This document shows, piece after piece, positions 39,976-40,806 of a stretch of 64,000 bases of DNA. Within the stretch, counting starts at the first letter, position 1; every line of letters starts with the position of its first letter. The DNA is taken from NCBI RefSeq assembly GCF_025118155.1, contig NW_026251388.1, positions 186,001 through 250,000 on the forward strand. The letters are read 5' to 3'. The DNA is from Cokeromyces recurvatus (Eukaryota; Mucoromycota; Mucoromycetes; Mucorales; Mucoraceae). A program made the position numbers and the translations under genes. The notes under the pieces are model-generated. The model saw only the letters and a list, made by a program, of their open reading frames with translations, did no database searches and was not told where the DNA came from.

Positions 39976-40806
39976 ATGAAGTAAATAGACATATAAAAAA
40001 TCCATCCAAGTAATAATCAACTAACCTTATCTGTATCTGTTATCTATATAAATTATTAGGCTTGAGATTTGTTCTTTCTCTGGCCACAAGATCTACCCCG
40101 CCAAGGGTAAGACTTACGTTCGTGTTGACAGCAGGTAAATTGAATTGTTCATTTGATGAAGAATATGTAAAGTTAACACCCTTTCCTTTTTTTTTTACTT
40201 GATCTTTTATTCAAAATTTATAGAGTAAGTGTTTTAAATTCATTAAAAAAAAAGCGAATGACTTTATTATGGATTTCAGTGAATCAGCCATTATTATAAG
40301 ATAGTCGATTTTCGTCTGACGTTTTTCTTTTTTTTTTTTTATTCGTTCATTTATAGACTTTCCGTTTCATCAACGGTAAAGCTGCTTCTTACTTCCTTCA
40401 ACGTTTGAACCCCCGTAAGATCAGATGGACTCAAATCTACCGTCGTTTGAACAAGAAGGGTATTACTGAGGAAGTCCGTAAGAAGCGTTCTCGTCGTACC
40501 GTCAAGCACGAACGTGCTATTGCCGGCGCCTCTTGGGAAGCTATTCGTGCCAAGCGTAACCAAAAGCCTGATGCTCGTGCTGCTGCTCGTCAAGCTGCTA
40601 TTGCCAAGTCTAAGGAAGTTAAGAAGGCTGCCGCTGCTGCCAAGAAGGCTGCTAACCCTAATGTAAGTTACTCAATCGAACAATGCTCGATTATACATAT
40701 ACTAATCATATATGTATATATATATATATTATAGGTCAATCACTCTAAGGTTAGCAAGCAACAAGCCAAGGGTTTCGCTCCTAAGGCTGCTGCCACCTCC
40801 CGTTAA
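39976..40806 (+). CDS. RPL24: 60S ribosomal protein eL24
   Basis: Five coding exons: 39976-39980 (only ATGAA), 40060-40134, a single base at 40224, 40357-40662 and 40735-40806, giving 152 residues, normal for eL24. The protein begins MKLEICSFSGHKIYPAKG, continues TYVRVDSRTFRF and RLNPRKIRWTQIYRRLNKKG, and ends in an Ala/Lys-rich tail. The Arg codon in VDSR-TFRF is AG from exon 2 plus one base; only the lone A between TATAG and GTAAGT at 40224 restores the frame with canonical sites. Codon use is more C-ending than in neighbours (AAG, CGT, GCT, TTC, GTC), as expected for high expression. eL24 sits on the large subunit and bridges to the small one. Identity is secure; the one-base exon needs RNA proof. 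Confidence 0.95.

Follow-up and report, generated by a model that had tools for sequence, protein, structure and literature searches.

The eL24 ribosomal protein gene in the Cokeromyces recurvatus (Mucorales) stretch analyzed here (the window, 64,000 nucleotides of contig NW_026251388.1) very probably contains a constitutive exon made up of a single nucleotide, the A at position 40224. Exactly one base sits there, flanked on one side by an acceptor and on the other by a donor, both canonical and strong, and the same layout is found in the two other eL24 copies of the genome. The A lies between a phase-2 intron (AG/A, with slashes marking splice borders) and a phase-0 intron (AGA/ACT), both of the GT-AG type, and would therefore complete an Arg codon, AGA, and keep the eL24 frame. 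Re-reading of the sequence agreed with every base and coordinate given in a preliminary description of the gene (40134, 40135, 40217-40230, 40224 and 40357). Exon 2 ends in GACAGCAG at 40134 and is followed by the donor GTAAAT; the inner block, TTTATAGAGTAAGT, reads as TTTATAG/A/GTAAGT; and the final acceptor TTATAG precedes the exon start ACTTTCCG at 40357. The two intron lengths proposed for the pair, 89 and 132 nt, were likewise reproduced. The main exon matches the Pfam family Ribosomal_L24e (PF01246) at 51.2 bits against a curated cut-off of 27, which places the gene in the eL24 family.

Table 1 Features of the eL24 gene in the window, and related genes elsewhere in the genome
Feature	Position	Strand	Remarks
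eL24 coding exon 1, 5 nt	39976..39980	+	ATGAA; layout matches C62 and C6 copies
First intron, 79 nt	39981..40059	+	GTAAAT...ATTAG; CTAAC 35 nt from its end
Coding exon 2, 75 nt	40060..40134	+	End ...GAC AGC AG
Intron 1 of the pair, phase 2, 89 nt	40135..40223	+	GTAAAT...TTTATAG
Putative single-nucleotide exon, A	40224..40224	+	Third base of Arg codon AG/A; identical base in C62 and C6 copies
Intron 2 of the pair, phase 0, 132 nt	40225..40356	+	GTAAGT...TTATAG; CTGAC 37 nt from its end
Main coding exon, 306 nt	40357..40662	+	Start ACT TTC CGT TTC
Last intron, 72 nt	40663..40734	+	GTAAGT...TATAG
Last coding exon, 72 nt	40735..40806	+	Includes stop TAA
eL24 copy in the window	C12		
Second eL24 copy	C62:431.0 kb		
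Third eL24 copy	C6:218.4 kb	-	
RLP24 gene L011	C6:352 kb		Single intron at AAG/ACT
RLP24 gene L012	C64:230 kb		Single intron at AAG/ACA

Splicing through the A yields a complete eL24 of 152 residues, and its omission brings a stop after 43 codons, in each of the three copies; the base is required in all of them for both the frame and the conserved motif. Two earlier claims hold as they were made, namely that direct joining of the neighboring exons is out of frame and runs into a stop, and that using the A as an exon places Arg in the D-S-[RK]-x-F pattern, where AGA would supply the conserved basic residue. No single GT-AG or GC-AG intron restores an intact eL24 when introns of at least 45 nt are allowed, with donors sought from codon 7 onward and acceptors as far as 44 bases inside the main exon: there are 19 in-frame options (7, 6 and 6), each of which deletes conserved residues. 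The one-base exon, the main reading of the preliminary description, is the only canonical arrangement found that gives an intact eL24, and it does so in three diverged copies.

A Pfam search of the whole genome (28,050,255 bases in 64 contigs, with the window on contig C12) returned ten L24e matches, which by position represent five genes, three for eL24 and two for RLP24, the latter named from their relatives in the protein listing. In all three eL24 copies the elements AG/GTA..., YAG/A/GTRNGY and TAG/ACTTTCCG fall at the same codon, and the inner blocks of the C62 and C6 copies read TTTTTTAG/A/GTATGT or TTTTATAG/A/GTAAGC. The paired introns measure 79 and 95 nt and 82 and 96 nt in those two copies. 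Fourfold-degenerate sites differ by 24-26% between the copies, and the introns show little alignable sequence beyond the splice sites (the aligner set the C62 inner block out of register), yet the inner block is kept. Conservation of the single-nucleotide exon is thus seen at the DNA level across three paralogues of one genome, and in other species by way of protein models. The three copies also have in common a first coding exon of only 5 nt (ATGAA/GT).

The same copies bear on the most durable of the alternatives, a single 221-nt intron with a non-canonical border (TA...AG or GT...TA, both leaving AGG) and no inner exon. Such an intron would also yield DSRTF, which in all three copies is permitted by G/G at the donor and by the G that precedes ACT at the acceptor. 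It is compatible as well with the deposited protein P0001, which matches in every residue the C6 product predicted with the one-nucleotide exon and in which AGA and AGG, both Arg codons, are indistinguishable. We nevertheless consider this arrangement very unlikely, as it needs a rare class of intron three times over and leaves TAG/A/GTRNGY in three copies as a coincidence. The TA-AG version, which had been put forward earlier as an alternative, would in the same way leave the conserved inner block unexplained. Moreover, the ten remaining introns that were measured across the five L24-family genes span 59-104 nt, and the composite intron exceeds them all, at 222 nt in the window and 175 and 179 nt in the two other copies, in line with the earlier remark that a 222-nt intron would be unusually long here.

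Shuffling indicates how readily the inner block arises by chance. In dinucleotide shuffles of the composite introns (20,000 per copy, with both sub-introns required to be at least 45 nt), a YAG-A-GTRNGY block appeared in 0.12%, 0.015% and 0% of cases for the three copies, rates that are not simply to be multiplied because the copies have common ancestry. The 14-mer, with up to one mismatch allowed, occurs once in the window against 0.06 expected (6 of 100 shuffles had one). Its 13-base core, TTTATAGAGTAAG, is found at three places in the 28-Mb genome (two in the reversed control), two of them at this eL24 position; the stretch around the third (L015, C44) has no evident gene as judged by eye. 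The looser pattern YAGNGTRNGY, with four occurrences in the window against 5.7 expected, is not unusual by itself, and the weight comes instead from the place of the block and its reading frame. A search for more one-base exons likewise gave no genome-wide excess of TTTNYAGNGTAAGT, with 18 places against 27 in the reversed control. Besides the window copy, three of the 18 were interpreted; these, YAG-N-GTAAGT strings at C5:538903 (L019, thioesterase-like), C16:117353 (L025) and C62:989396 (L032, dipeptidase-like), lie at what we take, from open frames and protein families, to be ordinary exon ends or starts. The pattern alone is insufficient to call a one-base exon.

Deposited protein models extend the comparison to other species. 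We scored the best 120 of 247 eL24 matches, with genus taken from the name and grouping by taxonomy, and defined the stretch around the codon as intact when it fits [VI][RK]xD[NSG][RK]xF. Among these 120, the stretch is intact in 19 of 60 models from Mucorales, none of six from Umbelopsidales, all 15 from Mortierellales and all 39 others, the last including unnamed metagenomic models; put the other way, 41 of 60 and six of six are broken at the codon, versus none of 54 outside these two orders. The residue itself is R or K in every one of those 54 (35 R and 19 K, unnamed sources included), and DSKIF stands at this position in 60S L24-A of entry 7pzy, the top match among solved structures. A second set, the best 120 of 1235, added 26 models from outside the group; the pattern flagged five, of which P0249 (RVDSRSFRI) and P0267 (KSDSRTYRL) keep the codon by eye, leaving three broken. 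Taking the best 120 of each set together, 77 of 80 eL24 models outside Mucorales and Umbelopsidales are intact. The three exceptions are P0254 (Thamnocephalis), P0255 (Saitozyma) and P0257 (Ustilago trichophora), so breakage is not strictly limited to Mucoromycotina, and plain introns or independent microexons could lie behind them. One unnamed metagenomic model, P0241, is 96% identical to an Umbelopsis model over the 73% that aligns and is cut at the same codon; it stands outside the counts. The eL24 DNA of stray fungal contigs was not found in one viral and one prokaryotic contig collection.

As a control, RLP24 models from the best 120 of 5821 matches are intact in 49 of 50 named Mucoromycotina (P0121-P0171 minus the unnamed P0134) and in 69 of 69 others. 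These figures apply with A and G allowed after the D; with D[SN] only, nine of 50 and 24 of 69 count as broken, compared with one of 50 and none of 69. None of the model counts are independent, as several species and pipelines recur, and sets of the best 120 may miss badly broken models, the RLP24 control included. The eL24 models are not simply bad throughout, since the main-exon motif is present in 59 of the 60 listed from Mucorales and in all of those from the other groups. The 5-nt first exon is often missed, and the expected protein start is absent from 24 of 60 listed Mucorales models and 14 of 15 from Mortierellales. Mortierellales models fail near the protein start and not at this codon, while those of Mucorales fail at both. 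Two points count against a one-base exon as the cause: some of the breakage goes along with the mis-modelled first exon in those 24 Mucorales models, and the 19 intact Mucorales models could in principle reflect species with one normal intron. Taken together, the break at this codon in Mucorales and Umbelopsidales versus intact eL24 models elsewhere and intact RLP24 models suggests that the one-base exon is shared by Mucorales and probably Umbelopsidales, and would thus be ancestral to at least Mucorales.

The manner in which the 47 broken models fail is also informative. Sorted by regular expression, 17 have insertions or other changes after DS[RS], 11 have deletions, 17 have exon 2 lost or out of frame, and two are direct joins; correction by eye assigns P0041 to the deletions and makes P0046 a larger deletion. 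The DSRLSVS of P0050 (Rhizopus arrhizus) and P0087 (Mucor hiemalis) corresponds to AG joined directly to ACTTTCCG, the out-of-frame product predicted when a model overlooks the base. Eight models, from Mucor circinelloides (two), M. fragilis, Rhizopus stolonifer (two), Absidia glauca, Rhizomucor pusillus and Lichtheimia ornata, have R-V-[R/C/S], as from AGA read into GTANGT, although this read-through is also expected if exon 2 ran directly into A/GTANGT. The R-Y of P0016 and P0077 fits read-through of the exon-2 donor AG/GTAY instead. For the DSS before an insert in P0007, P0008 and P0096 no explanation was found. The other broken models have VRxDSR deleted via a cryptic donor, or exon 2 lost.

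The models with this deletion raise a further alternative, a canonical intron that runs from a cryptic donor in exon 2 (TAC/GTTCGT or CGT/GTTGAC) to the final acceptor and gives an eL24 without VRVDSR or VDSR. In-frame GT-AG options of this kind are available in all three copies, and deposited models of the type exist, with KTY/TFRF or VR/TFRF in P0012, P0017, P0018, P0039, P0041 and others. It is, however, highly improbable as the true structure, for it deletes residues that are kept in those 77 of 80 listed outside models and in L24-A of the solved ribosome, and that are retained in 19 Mucorales models, including P0001 of this same genome.

If the A is indeed an exon, the two introns would have to leave one after the other, since a one-base exon is too short for acceptor and donor to be recognized simultaneously. 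With the first intron gone, CAGA/GTAAGT would remain, and with the second gone, TAG/AAC; good splice sites would be kept in each case, and either order appears workable. A branch-point-like motif near the inner acceptor is clear only in the C62 copy (CTAAT, 18 nt upstream); the window copy has only TTGAT at 21 and TTAAC at 47 nt, and the C6 copy TTAAT at 29 nt. If the A is left out, each of the three copies runs into a stop at codon 44; in the window this lies over 250 bases ahead of the last exon junction, and transcripts that skip the A would for this reason be expected to be degraded.

The need for two sequential steps, and the donor CAGA/GTAAGT that would be newly joined by removal of the first intron, also suit a stwintron, in which the splice signal of an outer intron harbors an inner one and there is no true exon. 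The preliminary description had called this an equivalent reading. The two successive removals are indeed common to both, but the equivalence goes no further: each intron is complete alone and neither splits the intronic splice signals of the other. Ahead of any splicing step nothing is missing from the outer donor GTAAGT or from either acceptor, the split affects donor positions within the exon alone, and the mRNA requires the A; we therefore give a stwintron hardly any credence. In a stwintron of the [D1,2] type the outer donor would be split between its first and second base; this arrangement, with 40135-40225 as the inner intron, was also tried and leads to DSNF, after which the frame is lost and a stop follows within six codons. 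The last alternative, a one-base assembly error at either junction of a plain 222-nt intron, could mend the frame of one copy but would have to recur in three diverged copies on three contigs, while models from other species fail at the same codon, so that its probability is negligible and the two paralogues with the same block exclude it in practice.

Returning to the one-base exon, the RLP24 genes point to how it may have arisen. Their single intron and the second eL24 intron interrupt the gene between the same two codons, a position that has possibly been common to the two genes since the divergence of the two proteins. The phase-0 intron may, on account of this shared boundary, be the older of the pair, and the phase-2 intron was probably inserted later, one base upstream at AG/A, cutting off the single base. 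A more far-reaching proposal is that the exon is older than the divergence of Mucorales and Umbelopsidales, that eL24 has retained it since, and that omission of the A acts as a switch which adjusts the amount of eL24 through unproductive splicing; we regard this as unlikely.

One-base exons probe the lower limit of exon recognition. The eL24 case combines a compact fungal genome, a housekeeping gene and three natural replicates, so that splicing order and efficiency should be easily measured, and it provides a specific explanation for why eL24 is mis-annotated in many of the deposited proteomes from Mucorales. It may also be an old example outside plants, and the lone RLP24 intron at this codon boundary points to a simple origin, in which a new intron came to lie one base away from an old one.

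Among the titles and abstract beginnings searched, none described a one-base exon in Mucorales or in a ribosomal protein. The preliminary description had such exons as reported in plants and extremely rare; the plant cases stand, but a fungal example backed by transcripts followed in 2026 (PMC12940212). In Fusarium CYP621A the base is a G that forms the middle position of a Gly codon; 18 SRA reads support it, the P450 is seemingly expressed only rarely, and the gene-model transcripts are wrong with a single exception (PMC12940212). Like the eL24 exon, it lies in a conserved motif of a fungal gene and is missed by automatic models, and it is shared by CYP621A orthologues (PMC12940212). The eL24 exon differs in its base, A, in belonging to a ribosomal protein, in occurring in three paralogues of one genome and in a distribution that gene models suggest to span a whole order. 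The proposed origins differ as well: for CYP621A, a base loss rescued by a cryptic exon (PMC12940212), whereas eL24 would better fit an intron inserted beside an older junction. In Arabidopsis APC11, the exon A333, examined in constructs with T, G or TT in its place and with the base deleted, is likewise a single constitutive A between GT/AG introns that is required for the frame (PMC4674806); that exon belongs to a single-copy plant gene and is experimentally proven, whereas the eL24 exon is predicted from sequence. In land plants, conserved 1-nt microexons are described in APC11 and VPS55, the latter with a conserved donor GTRAGT (PMC8831610); these are old and missing from reference annotations, as the eL24 exon appears to be, and are found in plants. 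Stwintrons also lose two introns in succession, but there the outer splice signal is interrupted, whereas in eL24 both introns are complete and would leave one mRNA base between them. On this comparison the putative eL24 exon is a new case of a known phenomenon, with an unusually broad inferred distribution.
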